NCBI RefSeq assembly: GCF_001953175.1
Contig: NZ_CP018258.1
Coordinates: forward strand, 1,082,210 to 1,146,209
Origin: Dehalogenimonas formicexedens
Lineage (GTDB): Bacteria > Chloroflexota > Dehalococcoidia > Dehalococcoidales > Dehalococcoidaceae
Direction of reading: 5' to 3'
DNA length: 64,000 nucleotides
The translations under genes and the position numbers were made by a program. Position 1 is the stretch's first letter; every line of letters begins with the position of its first letter. A model generated the notes under the pieces. It was not told the DNA's origin and searched no databases. It saw only the letters and a list, made by a program, of their open reading frames with translations. Positions 1-8,667 of the stretch are shown one piece after another.

Positions 1-612
1 GATAACCCAGCCGCCGACGAGCTACATCAAATTCATCCCCTGTTTAGTCAAGGCCTTTGGATTTTTGGACCAGAATATGAGTCCATTCAATTCATTTCAA
101 ATGTCACGTTACTTCGAGTGATTCAAGATTTATTCCAAGATAATCAAACAGTTAAGTTGGATAATCCGAAGAGAAGGCCAGATTTCGTTATATTACCCAA
201 TTCCACGATTGGCGTTTATGCGAGCGACGATTTCAATCGAAAGGGCGAAGTCAATGGTTTTGCCAAAGTATTAATTATCGAGCTAAAAAAAGGTGGTTCT
301 GAAATTACTGTAAAGGAAAGGCGCCAAGCTGAAGATTACGTATTAGAATTGAGGAAAAGTGGAAAAATTCAACCAACTACTGAATTAGTCGCGGTGGTAT
401 TGGGTAGTAGAGTGTCCGGAGATTGTACTGAAGTCAATTGGCCAGAGCAAAATACCCGAATCACCCCATATTCATATAGCGTCATTTTGAGGTTCGCTCA
501 TGCAAGAACATTTAACTTACTTGAGAAAATAAGGAAAGCGAAAGATATCGAACTCTCCGACCCAGAAATTGACCGTGTTTTACAGGTGGAAACGCAAAGC
601 CAATTTGTGTGA
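1..612 (+). CDS. C-terminal part of a large protein with a PD-(D/E)XK nuclease-like tail (5' end outside window)
   Basis: The frame is open from base 1, so the gene starts to the left of the window. An internal GTG at 118 is unlikely to be the true start because the same frame is coding-like before it (IHPLFSQGLWIFGPEYES). The visible 203 residues contain RPDFV near residue 59 and IIELKKG near residue 92, the spacing and chemistry of a D...ExK nuclease core. The segment around LWIFGPEYES is familiar to me from the ends of HSP90-like ATPase proteins found in accessory and defence regions, but that is recollection. The sequence is A+T-rich compared with the housekeeping genes to the right and belongs to the putative integrated element. 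The nuclease call is an inference; catalytic activity is not established. Confidence 0.6.
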   Translation, partial: DNPAADELHQIHPLFSQGLWIFGPEYESIQFISNVTLLRVIQDLFQDNQTVKLDNPKRRPDFVILPNSTIGVYASDDFNRKGEVNGFAKVLIIELKKGGSEITVKERRQAEDYVLELRKSGKIQPTTELVAVVLGSRVSGDCTEVNWPEQNTRITPYSYSVILRFAHARTFNLLEKIRKAKDIELSDPEIDRVLQVETQSQFV

Positions 613-683
613 GCTTGTGCGTTCGGGTGACATCTTCTTTTCACCAAGATGTTCGATATTTTAGACCAAAGTAGATTTTAGTT

Positions 684-1166
684 TTAGCCGTCCGCCAATA
701 CCTCGGGATGAGTTTTAATGTATTCTATTATTTGTCGGGCTGCCACATTGCCTGGGTATTTGATGAGGGCATTGAATACATATCTTCTGACACTTTCATC
801 CTCACGACCATCCGCCAAAACATAAGCCATTGACTTCACAGCAGTATCATCATTGATTCTGCCCAATGCCATGGCAGCAGTTATTCTTATTCGTAATTCT
901 TGCGATTTGTTAATGAGCAACTCCAAGAGTTTTTTTGTAGCCCGCTTGTCCTCAATTTCTCCGAGTGCGAACAACAACTCACACTGGATTCGGTAATCGG
1001 CGTCGGAGGATAACGGTTGGGGTTTTAAAGCCATTAATAATGGTTCCACAGCTTTGCCATCTTTCAATTCGCCAAGTGCATGAATGGCATGCAATATTTC
1101 ACTTTCAACATTGGAATTCTGCACAATGTCGATTAGTGTATCTAAGTTGTGATTTTCTTGAACCAT
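684..1166 (-). CDS. HEAT-repeat protein
   Basis: A 160-residue protein made almost entirely of paired short helices typical of HEAT/PBS-lyase repeats. Repeated units of about 32 residues carry A-x-x-A-L-G signatures: AIHALGELKDGKAVEPLL near residue 26, LLFALGEIEDKRATKKLL near 64, and AAMALGRINDDTAVKSMA near 97. Such proteins act as protein-binding scaffolds and have no obvious catalytic residues. It starts at an ATG with an AGGATG-like sequence upstream. It is the only minus-strand gene in the element and lies convergent to the nuclease-like gene. Its partner cannot be read from the sequence. Confidence 0.75.
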   Translation of the reverse strand: MVQENHNLDTLIDIVQNSNVESEILHAIHALGELKDGKAVEPLLMALKPQPLSSDADYRIQCELLFALGEIEDKRATKKLLELLINKSQELRIRITAAMALGRINDDTAVKSMAYVLADGREDESVRRYVFNALIKYPGNVAARQIIEYIKTHPEVLADG

Positions 1167-1294
1167 GACGACATCCTAATAGGTTGACTTTCCGCGATAT
1201 TCTATGTCCATGTTTGAGAAGTGTCAATAAGTGTTCCAAATAGTACCAAAGTGCCACATTGTTAACCTCTGATTATTATCAGAGGAAAGTAGGA

Positions 1295-1504
1295 GTGAAA
1301 CAACAAGTGGCACGAAAAAAGATAACCGCCAACGAAGAAAACGTAGAATCGCCATTTTATACTTTCACCGAAGCCCAGCAATTCCTAAAAGTCAGCCACC
1401 AGACTATTTATAGGCTTATGCAAAAGGGGCTTCCATCACACAAAGTTGGTAACAAAAGGGTATTTATAAAAGCAGACCTGATAAAATGGGTCCAGGAGCA
1501 CTAA
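1295..1504 (+). CDS. Excisionase-type helix-turn-helix DNA-binding protein
   Basis: Small DNA-binding protein with one MerR/excisionase-type (HTH_17) domain: FYTFTEAQQFLKVSHQTIYR, then a G-x-P-x-x-K-V-G-N-K-R-V-F wing and a C-terminal DLIKWVQEH helix, the usual layout of phage and element Xis proteins. The frame is open back to a TTG at 1259, but GTG at 1295 is preferred because GAGGAAAG at 1282-1289 lies at good Shine-Dalgarno distance. That gives 69 residues. It probably either bends DNA for excision with the integrase or regulates element genes; the sequence does not separate these. Confidence 0.75.
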   Translation: MKQQVARKKITANEENVESPFYTFTEAQQFLKVSHQTIYRLMQKGLPSHKVGNKRVFIKADLIKWVQEH

Positions 1505-1549
1505 ACCCGTCTTTTAGCCCTCACAATCTATATCTGAAGATTAACGAGC

Positions 1550-2380
1550 ATGTCGGACGACTCTGAGAACGAACCTCTAGAACTCCCAGATGCGATATAT
1601 TTACCGTTTCATCAGCTACCGGGAGTAAAAATCGCCGGTTACGCATTTGCGTGTGTTGAAAGAGCCTTAAAATACTCAGAAGAATCCCGAGTCGTATATG
1701 CTGGAATTGTACAGACTTGGGATTTACCTGGGTGCCAATCGTTAATTGAAGAGATGGCAACCCCAACCGAGGATTTCAATACGTGGCAAAAGAGCCTTGA
1801 CAAAGCTACGAAGTTCGGTACCTTACTTCCTGACTGGCCAACGTCCTGGGTGGACGTCTTTGCGAAAGTCAAAGATAATTCAGGCTTTGAGGCGTTATCA
1901 GAGCAGGCTCAGTACTTCGTAATAATGGCATTCAATCGTAAAGAGGACTTGGCTAACAATAAACCCAAAGTGAAACCTTTCATTCCCGGTCAAGAACCAT
2001 ACCTTTTCATGGCTGTCCTAATCAGCTCGCTGTTGGATTATTTGGCCAAAGTCCCGACAGGGGGTCCCAAGGTATGGTCCAGCGAATCATTGAGTGGATT
2101 TGTACATTTTTCCCAAGACGTTCGAGCAGGCTCTTCTGCCACACGGAGGCAACGGGCAATTCGGAATAGGATTCGGCATGAAGGGTACCGTATCAAACAT
2201 AGAAGCAAGATTCAAGAAGGTGCCGACACATGGTTTAAATGCCGCGTAAACCCAGGCACGATTGAGGCCTATCTGAATGATGTATCCAAAATAGGTAAAG
2301 CCCTAGAACGTAGTAATGTTGAAACCATGATTGCGCCGTATGACCAGGCCACAGGATACCCTCGTAAATGGCGTAAGTAA
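1550..2380 (+). CDS. Hypothetical protein of the integrated element
   Basis: A 276-residue protein I do not recognise. It starts with an acidic stretch (MSDDSENEPLELPD), has a hydrophobic patch LFMAVLISSLLDYLAKV near residue 150 that could be a buried helix rather than a membrane segment, and a strongly basic Arg-rich section SATRRQRAIRNRIRHEGYRI near residue 197 that may contact nucleic acid. There is no signal peptide or cysteine motif. A strong rho-independent terminator follows directly, so this gene ends a transcription unit that may begin with the upstream excisionase-like gene. Confidence 0.65.
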   Translation: MSDDSENEPLELPDAIYLPFHQLPGVKIAGYAFACVERALKYSEESRVVYAGIVQTWDLPGCQSLIEEMATPTEDFNTWQKSLDKATKFGTLLPDWPTSWVDVFAKVKDNSGFEALSEQAQYFVIMAFNRKEDLANNKPKVKPFIPGQEPYLFMAVLISSLLDYLAKVPTGGPKVWSSESLSGFVHFSQDVRAGSSATRRQRAIRNRIRHEGYRIKHRSKIQEGADTWFKCRVNPGTIEAYLNDVSKIGKALERSNVETMIAPYDQATGYPRKWRK

Positions 2381-2406
2381 TCCCTGATTCCCATCAGCAT
2401 ATCAGT

Positions 2407-2430
2407 AAAACCGCCTTAATGGGCGGTTTT
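2407..2430 (+). terminator. Rho-independent terminator
   Basis: Perfect 9-bp stem AAAACCGCC / GGCGGTTTT with a six-base loop. The T-run is part of the 3' arm and is followed by CTATTTG. It lies 27 bases after the stop of the hypothetical gene and before the XRE-type gene, separating two transcription units. Confidence 0.85.
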
Positions 2431-2487
2431 CTATTTGTACAAAAAAGTAATACATACATTTCTAATTGAATATGGCAGTATTTCAGC

Positions 2488-2715
2488 ATGAACGATGTAC
2501 TGGTTCTAACCGGTGTGAATGAAGGCCTAAAAATCAAACTAACGCGAATTGCTAAGGGTCTGCGTCAGATAGACGTAGCCGCAGCTGCTCGGGTAGATTG
2601 CATCGATATCACGCGACTTGAAAAGGGCCGTTTTGTTCTACCCGCCAGACAAAAACGGGTATTGGCTGTTTTGGGAATCAGCGATGACATCGAGGAAAAG
2701 GGAAACCATTGTTGA
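2488..2715 (+). CDS. XRE-family helix-turn-helix regulator
   Basis: A 75-residue protein with a Cro/CI-type helix-turn-helix covering about residues 12-65: LKIKLTRIAKGLRQIDVAAA, then ARVDCIDITRLEKGR, the usual recognition-helix and 'E-x-G' pattern, and LAVLGI near the end. It lacks a second domain, so it is of the small Cro-like class. It stands first in the run leading to the replication ATPase and is a reasonable candidate for the element's repressor or copy-control regulator. No good ribosome site is seen before the ATG. Confidence 0.75.
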   Translation: MNDVLVLTGVNEGLKIKLTRIAKGLRQIDVAAAARVDCIDITRLEKGRFVLPARQKRVLAVLGISDDIEEKGNHC

Positions 2716-2738
2716 ACCTGGCAATGTTGTTGGGCTGA

Positions 2739-2948
2739 ATGAATAACGATTGTTCTTTGGTTTTAACGGTCACAGAAGCTGCCAAGCTACTTCGCCTCGG
2801 GCGCTCGTTAACCTACGAACTCTGCGAGAAAAACGCTTTGCATGGTACCGCCATTCGGTTCGGAAAAAGATGGCTAGTTTCCCGGTCAAAATTATTGCGT
2901 CTAATCGAAGGTAACCAAGGAAGGTCAGAAGATGTCCCTTCAGGATAA
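2739..2948 (+). CDS. Second excisionase-type helix-turn-helix protein
   Basis: A 69-residue HTH_17/excisionase-like protein: LVLTVTEAAKLLRLGRSLTY is the helix-turn-helix, followed by a short wing (AIRFGKRWLVSRSKLLRLI) that matches the family's 'F-G-x-R-W-x-V' turn. Its last 17 bases overlap the start of the replication ATPase gene, suggesting translational coupling and co-regulation. Together with the first excisionase-like gene, the element carries two such proteins, one of which may act in replication or transcription rather than excision. Confidence 0.75.
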   Translation: MNNDCSLVLTVTEAAKLLRLGRSLTYELCEKNALHGTAIRFGKRWLVSRSKLLRLIEGNQGRSEDVPSG

Positions 2949-4716
2949 CCGCCTTCCACCCCACGACCTTGCTGCGGAAGAAGCCGTCAACGGCTCGCTG
3001 CTCATCAATGATAACGCAATCCACGAAGTTGCCCCATTCTTAAAGCCAGAAGACTTCTTTTCAGAACCCGGAAGGTTTGTCTACGAAGCCGCCTTAGATT
3101 TGTTTCAGCGGGGGGAACCAATTGACCAAGTTACGATGGCGCAGGAACTGGAACGCCAGCAACGGTTAGAGCGCGTTGGTGGGGCCGCCTACCTGGTTCA
3201 CCTGCTAGGCGTCGTACCTACCTCATTGGACGCCGGCCACTACGGCAAAATCGTGCGTAACAGTTCAATAGCCCGCTCGTTGGTGGTTGCTGGCACCCAA
3301 ATTACAAACCTCGCCTATGACGAAGGGTGCACCGTGGACCTCGGTACCGCGGTGAATAAAGCAAAAATGCTCATTGCCGGTATCGAACAGCAGGTTGGTC
3401 CGTCATTCATCGACCACCCCGAATTTTCGGTTTTAGGCAACGATTCCTTTAGGGCTCACTGGCAAGGACCATCTGTCACTATCGAGCTTTCACGCCTTCA
3501 GCCAAGTGGCAATGTCGAAATCGAGGTCATCCACGGGGTCAACGGTCACTCCAAAACCCTGGTGGTGGCATCGCATAACCTGCTCCGACAAAACGAGTTC
3601 TTCAACCTTATAAAAGCTTTGGAAGGCTCTAGGGTAACCTTTCCATGGAGAGAGGGACTCACCAAGGCATTTGCAATGGCCATGCAGCATTTTAAGGAAG
3701 GAACCCCTTCTCAGAAAGTAGGCCGGAAACCGGAGGGTATGTCTCAGACTTGGCAGGTTTATCCGATTTCTGAACGAGGGCAAATCACCGAGGTCTACGG
3801 AGCCGGCGGTGGCCTGAAAACCTATCTCGCTATTTACAACATGTTGGGATGCCAACTGTTACCGTTCTACCCCAAAATCAGTGACTACTTCAGCTCTCTC
3901 GGTCTAATTCCTATGCAAGCTAATGGGCTGTACCTAGATTGGGAGTCTTCAAAGGAGTCGATGGACCGGCGGTGTTGGGCGATAAAGGCGGGTTGGGGTA
4001 TCACAAACGACAGCGATGACGAGTGTTTTGAATACCTGTCCTGCGACAAGCCGCTGCTATACGAGATGGATAGGATTCGCCGGGTGATTGAATCCCGCGA
4101 TATCACGTTCGTTGTCATTGACAGTCAGATGGCCGCGTCCAGGAGCGGCACCAACCCAGACCAGCTCGCGGGGGAGTTCTTCAATGCAGTTCGTACGCTC
4201 GGCTGCACTGCATGGGTAGTAGACCACAGTACCAAGGCCGACGCGAGGGGCGATACGCTCGAAAGTTCAGGGCCGTTTGGCTCGGTCGTCAAGTACAATC
4301 GGGCAAGGGCTGTTTGGGAAGTCCGAGGAACCCATACCGAGGGTGATGAGTTCTATGACCTCTCCCTAAAGAACGTCAAGAACAACGATAGTCAGCTATT
4401 CCATACCATAGGCATCCGGGCTCGGTTTTACAATACTCCCATTCCGTCTCGGGTACTTCAGAAGGTCGAGTTTGAGCATCTAAATTTGCTGAACGACTCC
4501 CCAGAATTGGCCCAAAGGACCGTCGGTATCCGAAGGCTTGCCATCGACTATTTCACCAAGACCGGCAACAAACGAATTTCTATCGAGAAATTGGCCGCTG
4601 CAATCGGCAAAGCTGAAGCATCGGTCCGCGCCGAATTGTACCGCCAAAAAGGAACTTTCGACAAAAACATGGAAGGCCTATGGGGATTAATAGACCCGTT
4701 GCAGCATATCGAATAG
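2932..4716 (+). CDS. Replication ATPase with DnaB N-terminal domain and RecA-like (RepA/AAA_25-type) core
   Basis: 594 residues. Residues about 6-110 match the DnaB helicase N-terminal domain (LPPHDLAAEEAVNGSLL, ending GGAAYLVHLLGVVPT). A linker region around 150-270 is characteristic of element AAA proteins (FPWREGLTKAFA). The ATPase core follows, with Walker A GAGGGLKT at 290-297 and Walker B FVVIDS at 393-398, then a sensor-like WVVDHSTKA. A C-terminal winged-helix-like section ends the protein. Known relatives load or act as replicative helicases for plasmids, phages and integrative elements, so autonomous or satellite-type replication is likely (inference). An inverted repeat and a hexamer array lie immediately downstream. 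The start ATG overlaps the preceding gene. Confidence 0.8.
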   Translation: MSLQDNRLPPHDLAAEEAVNGSLLINDNAIHEVAPFLKPEDFFSEPGRFVYEAALDLFQRGEPIDQVTMAQELERQQRLERVGGAAYLVHLLGVVPTSLDAGHYGKIVRNSSIARSLVVAGTQITNLAYDEGCTVDLGTAVNKAKMLIAGIEQQVGPSFIDHPEFSVLGNDSFRAHWQGPSVTIELSRLQPSGNVEIEVIHGVNGHSKTLVVASHNLLRQNEFFNLIKALEGSRVTFPWREGLTKAFAMAMQHFKEGTPSQKVGRKPEGMSQTWQVYPISERGQITEVYGAGGGLKTYLAIYNMLGCQLLPFYPKISDYFSSLGLIPMQANGLYLDWESSKESMDRRCWAIKAGWGITNDSDDECFEYLSCDKPLLYEMDRIRRVIESRDITFVVIDSQMAASRSGTNPDQLAGEFFNAVRTLGCTAWVVDHSTKADARGDTLESSGPFGSVVKYNRARAVWEVRGTHTEGDEFYDLSLKNVKNNDSQLFHTIGIRARFYNTPIPSRVLQKVEFEHLNLLNDSPELAQRTVGIRRLAIDYFTKTGNKRISIEKLAAAIGKAEASVRAELYRQKGTFDKNMEGLWGLIDPLQHIE

Positions 4717-4723
4717 CAACACA

Positions 4724-4775
4724 CATTAGCACACCCCTTAAAGGGGGTGGTGCTAATGCTAATGCTAATGCTAAT
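4724..4775. repeat. Inverted repeat plus four tandem GCTAAT hexamers (candidate origin or regulatory array)
   Basis: CATTAGCAC (4724-4732) and its complement GTGCTAATG (4750-4758) flank a second imperfect stem CCCCTT/AGGGGG. From 4752 the hexamer GCTAAT is repeated four times without gaps, then degenerates. The array sits directly after the replication ATPase gene in a 220-base gap. Repeats next to an initiator-type gene are the usual layout of iteron origins. A terminator with a chance hexamer run is the main alternative. Confidence 0.55.
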
Positions 4776-4936
4776 AATGCTATAAGCTGTGCTACTCGAT
4801 GTTTGTAGCATGCTATTAAAACGCTGGGCTAATCAAATGGCTAGTACGACAAGGCGCGACGCCGGGACACATGATAGTTCGGGGTTCTCCGCTAGTTATC
4901 TGATGCAATGGCTGTCGCCAACACCGGGGGGGAGAT

Positions 4937-5995
4937 ATGGCACCATTAATCGATATCAATGACGACCACGGGCAACAAGAACGGTCCGAGCATATGGCTC
5001 GCTTGGCTGCGGAAAAGGAGGCCGCAGCGTATTTTGCGAATATCAAAAAAGCTTCGGACAACTTTAAGGTCATTCTGGCCAAAGAAAAGGAACCGGAAGT
5101 AACAACCCCGCAATGGTTACGGCCATATTCCCTCGACATTTGGGGCAACATACCATTTCCACCAAAAGATTGGATGACTGATGAGACTAAAATCAAAATC
5201 GCTCTGAAAAAAGCAACCCTACCAAGCGAATACGGAAAATACGTAAACCATCGCGTTTCTCACAAGGCATTTTACATACCCAGGGCATTTTATGAGGCGG
5301 TATCCCTAGCCACTCCCAGTTCGACCGGTCACCATAGTTCAAAAAGCCGGATTCCTTCTTTAGTCTGGGAAGTTGGTGTGCATATTATTTCGACCATAGA
5401 TTTCCATGAAACTCCAGGGGTCATTCGAGTTCCAAGATATGACTTTACACAACAAATTCGGTGCGTTCCAGAATGCTTGGGTGAGATGTACGCTGGACCC
5501 GAATTTTGGAGCTATCAAAAAGCATTCATCACTCCTGTCTTGCTCTTAGCCAAGCTCGCCTGGGGGAAAGAAAAGATGCCCGGCGTAGATGTCGTTAGAC
5601 GTGTCACCCCTTGGACCAGGTATGAGATTGAAAGTACGGGCCGTGAATTCAGCGTACATGACGATTTTGCGCGTCTCCTCCAGGAAGCGACGAAAAAGGC
5701 ATCCCTTGATAAAGCGCTTCTAAATATGGGGATATGCGACGTTCAAACAGCCCAGCTTATCAAGGTCGAGCTTGAGCGATTGAAGGCACTTGTGGCTCAA
5801 TCATCTTATCTCCCAGTTTTCGTAAAATCAGAAGATGTCTGTGACAACGGCTATGTTGACCTGATGGGCACCTTGGCTGCATTAGGATTTCCCAAAGCTG
5901 AGGCGGCTCCAGTTGCTAAGCAGGTTTGTCAGAAATACCCTGAAGAACCCCTTGAAAAAAAAGTCGCTATCGCCTTGCAGTTACTGGGTCGATGA
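4937..5995 (+). CDS. Element protein with RuvA domain III-like C-terminus
   Basis: 352 residues. The first 60 are charged and helical, and the central 200 residues match nothing I recognise. The last 45 residues (LMGTLAALGFPKAEAAPVAK ... EPLEKKVAIALQLL) closely follow the pattern of RuvA domain III, the module that binds the RuvB motor. The window's own RuvA ends with LAALGALGYSPTEAAKAVVA and EEKIKLALAGL. GGGGGGAG just before the ATG is a strong ribosome site. The gene follows the candidate origin. Recruitment of RuvB or of another branch-migration partner during element replication or recombination is an inference. Confidence 0.65.
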   Translation: MAPLIDINDDHGQQERSEHMARLAAEKEAAAYFANIKKASDNFKVILAKEKEPEVTTPQWLRPYSLDIWGNIPFPPKDWMTDETKIKIALKKATLPSEYGKYVNHRVSHKAFYIPRAFYEAVSLATPSSTGHHSSKSRIPSLVWEVGVHIISTIDFHETPGVIRVPRYDFTQQIRCVPECLGEMYAGPEFWSYQKAFITPVLLLAKLAWGKEKMPGVDVVRRVTPWTRYEIESTGREFSVHDDFARLLQEATKKASLDKALLNMGICDVQTAQLIKVELERLKALVAQSSYLPVFVKSEDVCDNGYVDLMGTLAALGFPKAEAAPVAKQVCQKYPEEPLEKKVAIALQLLGR

Positions 5996-6090
5996 TTCAA
6001 GCAGAAGAAAAGAGTCCATTTGTATCGAAATGGTAAACATAAGGCGAACATAGATAGATTTTATAGATAGAAGGAGGAGAGACAACAATA

Positions 6091-6366
6091 ATGACAAGGC
6101 GCCACGTTAACACAGGATTGTTCTTAAACTGCGAGTGCGGCGCAAAGGCGGTCATTTTAAACGATGGGGATTGCAAATGGCACAGCCATTGTGCCGGTTG
6201 TGGTAAGTTGAGTTTTTTTTCAAGCCCGCAGATTTTAGGCCGGGCGAAAGTCGGGGGTGGGTTGTGCCCGCACAAACCACCTGAAAAAAAATGTGCGAAC
6301 GGCACAACGACCACTTGGTGTGAAATTTGCCGAATCCGAACTTTCTCACCAATTAAACAAAAGTGA
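6091..6366 (+). CDS. Cysteine-rich zinc-ribbon protein
   Basis: 91 residues with four short cysteine knuckles: CECG near residue 14, CAGC near 35, C-P-H-x6-C near 59-67, and CEIC near 76. These would bind one or two zinc ions. No enzymatic motif is visible. The ATG follows an AAGGAGGAG ribosome site. The protein lies between the RuvA-tail protein and the short recombinase, and a DNA- or protein-binding accessory role is the most that can be said. Confidence 0.65.
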   Translation: MTRRHVNTGLFLNCECGAKAVILNDGDCKWHSHCAGCGKLSFFSSPQILGRAKVGGGLCPHKPPEKKCANGTTTTWCEICRIRTFSPIKQK

Positions 6367-6399
6367 CCAATTTGATTAGCCCTATAAAGGAGGATGAAA

Positions 6400-7071
6400 A
6401 TGAATGAAGGTTCAGCGATGGTTGTTTCGCCACAAGGACTAAACAAAACTTCAAAAGTGTTAGCCATTCAAAAGGGAGAGGCCGGAACGGCAACTTACGT
6501 CCCACACCTCAGCCTCCCCCAGGTCAAGATGCTGGCGGCCTCCGCCGCACATCTCGGAGAGGGCCACTACGGCGACCGCAACGAACTCTTAGTTCTAATC
6601 ACTTTCGATGGTTGCTTACGTTGTAGCGAGACCATCGGTCTCAGGGTGCGCGACATCGACCGCAACGATGACGGCTGGGTTGTCAGGATTCTGGGCAAGG
6701 GCCACAAGGCCGGTGTGGCCGCCATTTCTCCATCACTTGCTGCCCGGCTCCAGGCCTTCGCGTACCGTCAGAAGCTCAACCCGGATGACAGACTTTTCCC
6801 ATTTTCTAGGTCCCGGGCATACCAGATAATCTGCGCAGCTTACGACGGCTGCCCTGAACTTTATAAACCGTCCAAGGAGAAAGACCGTGTTGGTGCGGTC
6901 CATGCATTACGCCACAGTGGAGCCATCGAAAGACTCCGTGTGACAAGGAATCCAACGGCCGTGCAACATCAGCTTCGACACCGTTCGGCAGTCATGACTC
7001 TAAAATATTTTCGAACTCTCACAATCGATGAGTCACTCACCCAGCAAAAGGCGGTTGACTTTGATTATTGA
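6400..7071 (+). CDS. Tyrosine recombinase, catalytic domain only
   Basis: 223 residues, about half the length of a normal integrase. All catalytic residues are visible: Arg within CLRCSETIGLRVRD, Lys in GKGHKAG, H-x-x-R in HALRHSG, the second His in LRHRS, and the nucleophile Tyr in LKYFRT. There is no N-terminal core-binding (SAM-like) domain, so DNA specificity must come from elsewhere. The ATG at 6400 is preferred over 6394 because AAAGGAGG ends at 6393, leaving six bases of spacing. It may resolve element dimers, invert a segment or assist the full-length integrase 280 bases downstream. Confidence 0.8.
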   Translation: MNEGSAMVVSPQGLNKTSKVLAIQKGEAGTATYVPHLSLPQVKMLAASAAHLGEGHYGDRNELLVLITFDGCLRCSETIGLRVRDIDRNDDGWVVRILGKGHKAGVAAISPSLAARLQAFAYRQKLNPDDRLFPFSRSRAYQIICAAYDGCPELYKPSKEKDRVGAVHALRHSGAIERLRVTRNPTAVQHQLRHRSAVMTLKYFRTLTIDESLTQQKAVDFDY

Positions 7072-7134
7072 TGTCATTGTAATTGCCCGAAGTTCGGATT
7101 CAAGTCCCATTAAAATGCCCGCGGGATTATTACT

Positions 7135-7163
7135 TTGATATTATATATGTATGTCTATATAAT
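7135..7163 (+). promoter_or_regulatory. Near-consensus sigma-70 promoter placing the start site on an ATG
   Basis: TTGATA at 7135-7140 and TATAAT at 7158-7163 are separated by exactly 17 bases. Only six bases separate the -10 box from the ATG at 7170, so the expected first transcribed base is at or next to the start codon. This implies a leaderless mRNA for the next gene. Confidence 0.75.
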
Positions 7164-7169
7164 CTAGAC

Positions 7170-7364
7170 ATGGAAGATAATTATGTGCGACTCCCAATCT
7201 ATTTGTGCCAGCGCTGTCGACATAGGTGGGTACCAAGGTCAGACCGAGTCCCACAAAGGTGCCCACGATGTAATTCACCATATTGGCAAAAGCCAAGATG
7301 GAAAGGACTGAAGAGGGTTAAGGCAACCGAAGAGGAGGATAAAAAAGATGGCACAAAGAAGTAA
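7170..7364 (+). CDS. Small zinc-ribbon protein, probably leaderless
   Basis: 64 residues: CQRCRHRW then CPRCNSPYW form a rubredoxin-like zinc ribbon in the first half, followed by a highly charged lysine-rich tail (EEEDKKDGTKK). The frame is open back to a TTG at 7083, but the ATG at 7170 is favoured because a strong promoter ends six bases before it and residues before it do not look conserved. The last 17 bases overlap the integrase start, so integrase expression is probably coupled to it. Such small ribbons in elements often bind DNA, but the function is not known. Confidence 0.65.
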   Translation: MEDNYVRLPIYLCQRCRHRWVPRSDRVPQRCPRCNSPYWQKPRWKGLKRVKATEEEDKKDGTKK

Positions 7365-8523
7365 GGGCGCGGGCCGCGTTATCGACCGAGGTACCGACAA
7401 GCACGGGAACAAAGTCTGGGCGGTAGCCGCCGAACTACCCAAGACCCCAGAAGGTAAACGTAGCCAAGTATGGCGGACGGTTCGTGGGAATCGCCGTCAA
7501 GCCGAGAAAGCCCTTCAGAGTCTCCAATCTGAGATTCAGCGAAAAGAAGTAGTTAAACCTTCTAGGGGCACTCTCGCAGTATTCATGGCTTCCTGGCTCA
7601 ACGATAACCTTAAGGCAACAGCAAGCCCCAAGACATTCCAGAATTATTCATCCATGCTTTCAGCCCACATCACACCATCTGCACTAGGCACAATGGCGCT
7701 GGGTGATATTGACCCGAACGCAGTTCAAGCTTACATCAACTCTAAACTCAAAGCGGGCTTAAGTGCCAGGACAGTTCGCCATCATTACGCCCTGATTCAC
7801 AGGGCTCTTGAATTGGCAACACGCTGGGGAATGATAACCCGGAATCCTGCTTCAATCATCGACCCGCCACGATTCAAGCGGCCTGAAATGAACACTTTAT
7901 CCGAAGAACAAATCGGTCATGTTCTAGCTGCCGTTCTGGGGTCGATGTATCATCCAATCTATGCTACGGCAATATTTTCCGGAGCTCGCCGGAGCGAATA
8001 TTTGGCATTGCGCTGGGGTGATATCGATTTCAAGTTTGCTTCGATGAGCATATCCAGGTCGATGCATTATGTTGGTGGCAAAATCGTGTTTACCGAAACG
8101 AAGACGGCCAAATCGCGGCGCCTAATAGTGCTCACTCCTACTCTCATTGAGATTCTCACACGCCACTTTGAGGAGCAGCGCGCCCTGGCTGACAAACTGG
8201 AGCGACCTTTCAATCAGGACTCGCTCGTCTTCTGCCATGCCGATGGCTCACCAGTGTTACCAGACTCAATAACTCAGCATTGGGCTCGGGTCTGTAAAAA
8301 GCTCGGTTTCGATGTCCGGCTCCATGATGCACGTCATACCATGGCGACTATAATGTTAAAACAGGGAGTACATCCGAAAGTTGTCGCGGAAAGGCTCGGC
8401 CATTCTTCTGTGAGCCTCACTCTGGACACTTACTCTCACGTTACCCAGAGCATGGGTAAGGTCGCCGCTTTCCAACTCGACCAGGCCATTGCCGAGGCAA
8501 TCGCTAAAGCTGGCGCAATCTAA
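7348..8523 (+). CDS. int: Site-specific tyrosine integrase
   Basis: 391 residues with the full integrase layout: an N-terminal AP2-like arm-binding region (residues about 10-60), a SAM-like core-binding domain (about 70-170, TLAVFMASWLNDNL ... ITRNPASII), and the catalytic domain with R in SGARRSEYLAL, K in ETKTAKSRR, H-x-x-R in HDARHTMA, H in LGHSS and Tyr in LDTYSH. GAGGAGG lies eight bases before the ATG. The gene runs toward the 3' end of the initiator tRNA, 69 bases beyond its stop, which is the usual position of an integrase relative to its attachment site. It most likely inserted and excises this element. Confidence 0.92.
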   Translation: MAQRSKGAGRVIDRGTDKHGNKVWAVAAELPKTPEGKRSQVWRTVRGNRRQAEKALQSLQSEIQRKEVVKPSRGTLAVFMASWLNDNLKATASPKTFQNYSSMLSAHITPSALGTMALGDIDPNAVQAYINSKLKAGLSARTVRHHYALIHRALELATRWGMITRNPASIIDPPRFKRPEMNTLSEEQIGHVLAAVLGSMYHPIYATAIFSGARRSEYLALRWGDIDFKFASMSISRSMHYVGGKIVFTETKTAKSRRLIVLTPTLIEILTRHFEEQRALADKLERPFNQDSLVFCHADGSPVLPDSITQHWARVCKKLGFDVRLHDARHTMATIMLKQGVHPKVVAERLGHSSVSLTLDTYSHVTQSMGKVAAFQLDQAIAEAIAKAGAI

Positions 8524-8529
8524 GAAAGC

Positions 8530-8550
8530 GTGCAAAAAAGAGTGCAAAAA
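8530..8550. repeat. Two direct repeats GTGCAAAAA between integrase and tRNA
   Basis: GTGCAAAAA occurs at 8530-8538 and again at 8542-8550, a 12-base period, between the integrase stop and the attachment-site tRNA. Short direct repeats here could be integrase arm-type sites, but the A-rich composition makes chance possible. Confidence 0.35.
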
Positions 8551-8553
8551 TCA

Positions 8554-8580
8554 AAGAGCCCTCTTAAAAAGAGGGCTCTT
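8554..8580 (+). terminator. Terminator after the integrase
   Basis: A perfect 12-bp stem AAGAGCCCTCTT / AAGAGGGCTCTT with a three-A loop lies 30 bases after the integrase stop. The symmetric arms end in A and T bases on both strands, so it could also stop transcription leaving the minus-strand tRNA gene. Confidence 0.8.
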
Positions 8581-8592
8581 ACGTTTACAAAT

Positions 8593-8667
8593 TGGTAGCG
8601 GGGATAGGATTCGAACCTATGACCTTCGGGTTATGAGCCCGACGAGCTGCCACTGCTCCACCCCGCG
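8593..8667 (-). tRNA. Initiator tRNA-fMet (CAT)
   Basis: A 75-base cloverleaf on the minus strand with CCA encoded. The anticodon loop CTCATAA sits on a stem with three G-C pairs (GGG/CCC), the mark of initiator tRNA. The first base C faces T at position 72, so there is no Watson-Crick pair at 1:72, again as in initiators. TTCGAAT forms the T loop. Its 3' end faces the integrase, making it the likely attachment site. The gene is intact, so the crossover restores its sequence. Confidence 0.93.

Follow-up and report, generated by a model that had tools for sequence, protein, structure and literature searches.

A 22,925-bp integrative element occupies the initiator tRNA gene of Dehalogenimonas formicexedens. 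Its right-hand 8.6 kb (37%) form positions 1-8592 of the window, which here means the whole 64,000-nucleotide stretch analysed (G000:C1:1,082,210-1,146,209; complete genome of 2,092,789 bp). The element encodes Rep, a protein in which the N-terminal domain of the helicase DnaB is joined to a RepA-like ATPase. This is probably a tRNA-targeted integrative element with its own replicon, whose Rep docks the host primase DnaG through the DnaB N-domain. A preliminary description of the same DNA had proposed a replicating integrative element or a satellite. In favour of the former reading are the rep gene and an iteron-hairpin region resembling an origin.

Insertion at the initiator tRNA gene

The tRNA at the right end of the element, tRNA-Met(CAT), carries a C1-U72 mismatch and a GGG/CCC anticodon stem, and is therefore the initiator. 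One full-length match was obtained in each genome of the genus, which suggests a single-copy target. The integration features are as follows.

8593..8667, minus strand: initiator tRNA-fMet, tRNA-Met(CAT), called by ARAGORN; the insertion target, with a 3' half that comes from the element
8592..8637 (genome 1,090,801-1,090,846), unstranded: right copy of the attachment (att) repeat, reaching from the 3' end of the tRNA as far as the anticodon loop
Genome 1,067,876-1,067,921, outside the window: left copy of the att repeat, 46/46 identical to the right copy
7348..8523, plus strand: complete tyrosine integrase, 391 aa (PF00589 2.6e-21 and an N-terminal SAM-like domain)
8524..8547, plus strand: right tandem arm-type sites (AAAGCGTGCAA, AAAGAGTGCAA), two of four copies
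Genome 1,068,037-1,068,060: left tandem arm-type pair, 160 bp inside the left end
8554..8580, unstranded: perfect 12-bp inverted repeat, terminator-like, between the integrase gene and the tRNA

A search of the whole genome found the two copies of the tRNA 3'-half repeat 22,925 bp apart, which places the left boundary 14.3 kb to the left of the window start. ARAGORN calls no tRNA at the left copy; it is a remnant without tRNA function. Eleven genomes of the family were searched, from two genera and 1.4-2.1 Mb in size. In the closest relative, G005, the site is empty (G005:C1:1082775-1083460): the alignment is unbroken over the junction and includes both flanks and the tRNA at 75% identity. The other family genomes possess the tRNA without this element, and this integrase was found at this tRNA site in no other family genome searched. 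GC content is 0.40-0.52 within the element versus 0.49-0.61 in the flanks. The sequence comparison demonstrates that the element entered the apparently single-copy initiator tRNA gene as a circle, at the gene's 3' half. The tRNA is now completed by the 46 bp of 3' half that the element brought along; the 3' half originally present has been displaced, together with its terminator, to the far end. On this reconstruction, the tRNA gene receives a new downstream region from the element. The direct repeat of the tRNA 3' end and the empty site in a relative, both of which the preliminary description had proposed as checks, are thus present. The extent of 1-8592 given there lies within the element but covers only its right-hand part.

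The full identity of the att copies, one of them without tRNA function, suggests a recent insertion or a continuing exchange between the copies. It also bears on the view that the element is a decayed genomic island with lost mobility. Such decay could be read from the IS3 insertion in the left part and from the presence of the element in only one genome of the family. However, the att copies remain identical although the far one no longer serves a tRNA, and the integrase gene, rep, the arm sites and the iterons are all intact, so that decay is given little probability. The motif AAAG[C/A]GTGCAA, arranged in 12-bp tandem pairs, occurs four times in 22,971 bp, twice at each end and nowhere between; this restriction to both ends fits the expectation for arm-type integrase sites.

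The complete integrase (7348-8523) adjoining the 3' end of a tRNA-fMet (8593-8667, minus strand) had been described correctly, and the sequence identifies the tRNA as an initiator. The choice of an initiator instead of an elongator tRNA is likewise correct and uncommon, but it is neither unique nor new in kind. Related tyrosine integrases elsewhere adjoin tRNA-Arg, Ser, Thr, Ala, Lys and others. In G663 and G482, two further genomes of the class, they stand beside initiator tRNAs (L104:2742-2816 and L113:2243-2317). In the congener G008, a large serine recombinase with Resolvase (1.2e-33), Recombinase and zinc ribbon domains lies antisense to the same initiator tRNA, with overlap at the tRNA's 3' end (L054:3808-5445, minus strand), and a nuoE-type gene adjoins it as in the window genome. 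No far att copy of the G008 element was found within the 19.5 kb searched. This is a second, independent use of the same site. One chromosomal place is hence used by both tyrosine and serine recombinases.

Separately, a 46-bp fragment in G002 (L020, G002:C1:1,017,413-1,017,458) shares 85% identity with the initiator tRNA's 5' half, and no tRNA is called there. This fragment is possibly a relic of an integration.

The Rep protein and its DnaB N-domain

Rep lies in a compact run with two regulatory genes. An excisionase-like gene stands further upstream.

2932..4716, plus strand: Rep, 594 aa; from N- to C-terminus a host-type DnaB N-domain with its linker (aa 1 to ~150), an N-region specific to the family, a RecA/AAA_25 ATPase of RepA type and a winged helix
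2739..2948, plus strand: HTH_17 (AlpA/Xis-type) gene, profile 1e-10, overlapping the rep start by 17 bp
2488..2715, plus strand: XRE-like regulator, weak when taken alone (5.5e-3)
1259..1504, plus strand: HTH_17 excisionase-like gene, profile 1e-12

Rep matches DnaB-N at 9.5e-27 and AAA_25 at 4.6e-11. Clear XRE genes occupy the position of the weak XRE-like gene in the relatives L119 (G071) and L120, and the order XRE - HTH_17 - rep core is common to both. The earlier assignments of a DnaB-N/RecA-fold ATPase, two Xis-like genes and an XRE gene are borne out by these matches, the last of them with the help of the relatives.

From its first residue to about residue 150, Rep is 58-71% identical to the chromosomal DnaBs of the genus, and DnaBs from the rest of the order reach no more than 55%. 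In a set of 156 genomes of the order, no other DnaB-N sits in a frame of about 600 aa. A tree places the Rep N-domain among the DnaBs of the genus (86/85), beside those of its own genome (G000) and G005 (94/78). Its identity to the DnaB of the same genome is 0.69, 0.84 and 0.42 at codon positions 1, 2 and 3, respectively, and 34 of the 39 DnaB-N residues invariant throughout the order are kept. Since third positions have drifted and second positions and most invariant residues have been retained, the domain is under constraint at the protein level. Such constraint combined with third-position drift points to an acquisition from the host lineage that was not recent and in which function was kept. 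Capture of the DnaB N-domain from the host lineage is well supported by these comparisons; the route may have led through a phage-borne host-like DnaB. Nothing relevant on the capture of host DnaB by mobile elements was found in the literature, which was incompletely covered, so that such reports may nevertheless exist. In G628 (L131), a gene upstream of rep that resembles DnaB-N was considered as a second case and rejected, its Pfam value (0.0034) being below the cut-off and the probability in profile comparison being 2%.

Of the Bst DnaB residues compared, Y88 and I125 are kept in Rep, and I119 is replaced by V. In Bst DnaB, I119 and I125 bind primase, and the DnaB N-domain with its linker binds DnaG primase (PMC2761005). 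Elsewhere in the relatives, the RepA-like ATPase is either standalone or joined to a primase-type module, which lies directly upstream of rep or is fused to it N-terminally. CHC2, the zinc finger of DnaG, is found in L120 (2e-10) and L132 (3e-29), and fused forms occur in L153 and L154. The other partners are CHC2 with Toprim in L121 (weak), Prim-Pol in L146 and an NrS-1-pol-like domain in L139. Most likely, therefore, the DnaB-N of Rep would recruit the host primase.

The same element could also be read differently, with the DnaB-N of Rep mixing with or capturing the host helicase through the collar of DnaB N-terminal domains, or capturing the helicase loader, and so bringing host DnaB to the iterons. 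The DnaB N-domain with its linker is also the dimerising region that forms the hexamer collar (PMC2761005). A complex of DnaB with the loader DciA (8a3v) is among the PDB matches, and the near identity to host DnaB favours a mixed assembly equally. However, Rep has its own RepA-like ATPase, which should make host DnaB unneeded, and the domains found in the same place or fusion slot in relatives are of the primase type, not of the helicase type. Recruitment of the host helicase is consequently regarded as unlikely, yet as the foremost of the rivals to primase docking.

In several relatives, rep is preceded by a gene of about 95-115 aa with the motif FYH..D...L..EL..LRP.LWG (L127:1163-1477, L136:1194-1478 and L152:2712-3053). 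One of these genes was scanned and gave no Pfam match.

The remainder of Rep (residues ~155-594) belongs to a family present in 26 of 393 genomes of the class; a scan of contigs with one short peptide pattern gave at least seven loci. The predicted structure has a mean pLDDT (predicted local distance difference test) of 71, and residues 155-275 are unreliable in it. The model resembles RSF1010 RepA (1olo) with Z 18.2 and a root-mean-square deviation of 3.5 over 209 residues, a score with which other RecA folds tie. The core has no sequence match in PDB, and RSF1010 RepA was not matched by phmmer. The viral-contig scan contained no Rep relatives. Among plasmids and phages searched by tblastn, no record covers 80% of Rep, and the matches are mostly to the DnaB N-domain only. 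By domain and fold, the Rep ATPase is predicted to be a RepA-like replicative helicase.

The origin-like region and the proposed replication mechanism

Directly 3' of rep lies the repeat array noted in the preliminary description, and it is accompanied by a hairpin.

4724..4758, unstranded: origin-like hairpin CATTAGCACACCCC / GGGTGGTGCTAATG, its outer arms being inverted iteron copies; 0/100 shuffles were equally good
4751..4775, plus strand: iterons, four overlapping direct TGCTAAT copies; one inverted copy lies at 4725-4731

The array at 4751-4775 comprises 4.2 perfect copies of TGCTAA. Three tandem copies are unique in the 64 kb even when 2 mismatches are allowed, the chance expectation being 0. 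A chance origin of the array is ruled out by this uniqueness and by the shuffles. Homologues of Rep have a GC hairpin and direct repeats at the same spot, each with its own sequence (for example TGATACG in L121, AACTTACA in L126 and TGTTAA in L133). A 7-mer occurs at least four times within 160 nt 3' of rep in 16 of 25 homologues, as opposed to 1 of 221 control genes (Fisher 6e-18); two further matches in the control set proved to be rep genes and were counted as such. Because the layout is shared and the repeat sequence is specific to each element, the region is read as an element-specific replication origin to which Rep would bind.

The one control gene with such a repeat is a DUF3987 gene; for that family, a role as a replication helicase in mobile elements has been predicted (PMC5862659). 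At L122:10295-12733 (minus strand), a 7-mer occurs six times within 160 nt after a DUF3987 gene, which suggests an iteron origin there, too.

The hairpin and iterons might instead serve as a transcription terminator and an operator for rep autoregulation. The position of a GC-rich hairpin just after rep agrees with such a role. In the window, however, the hairpin has no following T-run, and the direct repeats after it differ from element to element, as expected of origin-specific iterons. A regulatory role is therefore considered decidedly unlikely.

The origin reading fits a mechanism in which the integrase and an HTH_17 excisionase would excise the element under the control of the XRE regulator. 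The excised circle would then replicate from the hairpin-iteron region just 3' of rep. Rep would recognise and bind these iterons, probably via its C-terminal winged helix, act as a RepA-like helicase and presumably take part in helicase loading. Its DnaB-N would dock the host DnaG primase and fill the role of the primase-type module that some relatives encode. The anatomy of the element, the homology of its parts and the constraint on the DnaB N-domain are observed. A more general suggestion is tentative, with somewhat less than an even chance of being right: elements can swap their own primase for that of the host by fusing a captured primase-docking N-domain of DnaB to an initiator-helicase, so that one protein binds iterons, unwinds DNA and recruits DnaG.

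Several points weigh against this account. Excision, the circular form and replication are predictions from the DNA sequence. A position of the Rep N-domain as sister to all DnaBs of the genus is not rejected (approximately unbiased test, p 0.19), and the Rep N-domain is a long branch. At the position of E15 in Bst DnaB, both Rep and host DnaB have A. A fusion of DnaB-N with AAA_25 is also known from a Streptomyces plasmid (WP_332010482.1). The close relatives L119, L126, L130 and L133 have neither a recognised primase domain nor DnaB-N beside rep, so a module of either kind is not obligatory. The Walker A motif of Rep is the unusual GAGGGLKT rather than the canonical GxxxxGK[ST], the glycine before the lysine being replaced and K and T being kept; that of the closest Rep relative is also off consensus (APGGCAKS). 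Finally, 9 of the 25 homologues lack clear iterons.

The element offers a testable case of a link between element and host replication, with a piece of the host helicase fused to an initiator in the slot of the primase-type module of some relatives. The hairpin-iteron layout, constant while the repeat sequence varies, can serve as a signature when origins are sought in a family of AAA_25 replicons of Dehalococcoidia. Moreover, an element with exactly mapped ends and a known empty site is now available in a group of organohalide-respiring bacteria, which are slow-growing and genetically difficult.

Cargo and comparison with known systems

The remaining genes of the element within the window are listed below; the short recombinase is absent from the preliminary description.

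1..612, plus strand: 3' part of a GHKL ATPase gene (640 aa; start 1.3 kb before the window); the protein has type II restriction-like matches
684..1166, minus strand: HEAT-repeat protein, 160 aa (domain scan)
1550..2380, plus strand: 276-aa protein, no family assigned in the Pfam scan
4937..5995, plus strand: 352-aa protein with a weak C-terminal RuvA_C match
6394..7071, plus strand: short tyrosine recombinase, 225 aa, with the catalytic domain only and no N-terminal domain

The left 14.3 kb contain a type ISP/IIG restriction-methylation enzyme (Type_ISP_C 1.7e-77; PADLOC 1,124 bits), an SprT-like gene (weak), an IS3-type transposase pair, a 1,301-aa protein with tetratricopeptide repeats and a PIN domain, and DUF5677 and DUF429 genes. 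By domain content, most of the cargo genes are of the restriction or conflict type. Pfam and PHROGs scans of the larger proteins recognised no capsid or other phage structural, terminase, packaging, interference or helper-phage genes. Pfam scans of the larger proteins gave no relaxase or conjugation genes; small or unassigned open reading frames may still encode one. For the larger proteins, the earlier remark that no capsid or conjugation gene is visible thus extends to the whole element.

The proposal of a satellite would make the element similar to phage-inducible chromosomal islands (PICIs), carrying an integrase, an Xis-type HTH (helix-turn-helix) gene, a repressor, rep and an iteron origin, and mobilised by a helper phage. 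The PICI order of regulator, xis, primase/rep and iteron origin beside the integrase gene (PMC6092414) resembles that of the element, which also carries anti-phage-type genes. However, the terminase, capsid-remodelling and interference genes looked for in the PHROGs scans were not recognised. The PICI origin has two iteron sets flanking an AT-rich region, whereas the element has one iteron block with a hairpin. A satellite nature is thus not shown, and mobilisation by a helper phage is considered very unlikely. In the comparison with the pri-rep-ori region of PICIs and Staphylococcus aureus pathogenicity islands (PMC6092414), the regulator, the xis-type HTH gene and rep followed by element-specific iterons are shared. 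Unlike those islands, the element has no recognised packaging genes, has a DnaB N-domain instead of its own primase and places its single iteron block on a GC hairpin. In the PICI scheme, the integrase gene stands at the opposite end of the module.

The tRNA-targeted integrative element with its own replicon, which is the preferred reading, belongs with tyrosine-integrase elements such as integrative plasmids, integrative mobilizable elements and islands. With these it shares the att repeat from the tRNA 3' half, the restored tRNA, the integrase gene adjoining the tRNA, arm sites, xis-like genes and the empty site. It differs from them in its initiator tRNA target and in having no recognised mobilisation gene. 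Elements of this kind with rep-iteron modules were already known (PICIs, integrative plasmids), as were fusions of primase modules with RepA-type helicases (PMC5862659). New, as far as searched, are the host-lineage DnaB N-domain in the slot of the primase module and the conservation of the hairpin-iteron layout in the Rep family.

Rep shares with RSF1010 RepA (1olo, 1g8y) the RecA-like fold (Z 18.2 over 209 residues). RSF1010 RepA works with iterons and a separate primase. Unlike it, Rep has an extra N-terminal region and a winged helix in the same chain, with DnaB-N fused. Rep resembles bacterial DnaB over its first ~150 residues (58-71% identity to the DnaBs of the host genus) but joins this N-domain to a RepA-like AAA_25 core, not to the RecA domain of DnaB. 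The plasmid protein WP_332010482.1 of Streptomyces sp. NBC_01650 combines these two Pfam domains in identical order; it differs in its length of 454 aa, its divergent N-domain and its lack of the intervening region. The ssrA islands of Dehalococcoides (PMC3146451), which belong to the same family of bacteria, are likewise inserted site-specifically at an RNA gene and carry cargo. Unlike the present element, they use the serine recombinase DsiB, target tmRNA and have no such rep; they are closer in kind to the serine-recombinase insertion of G008.

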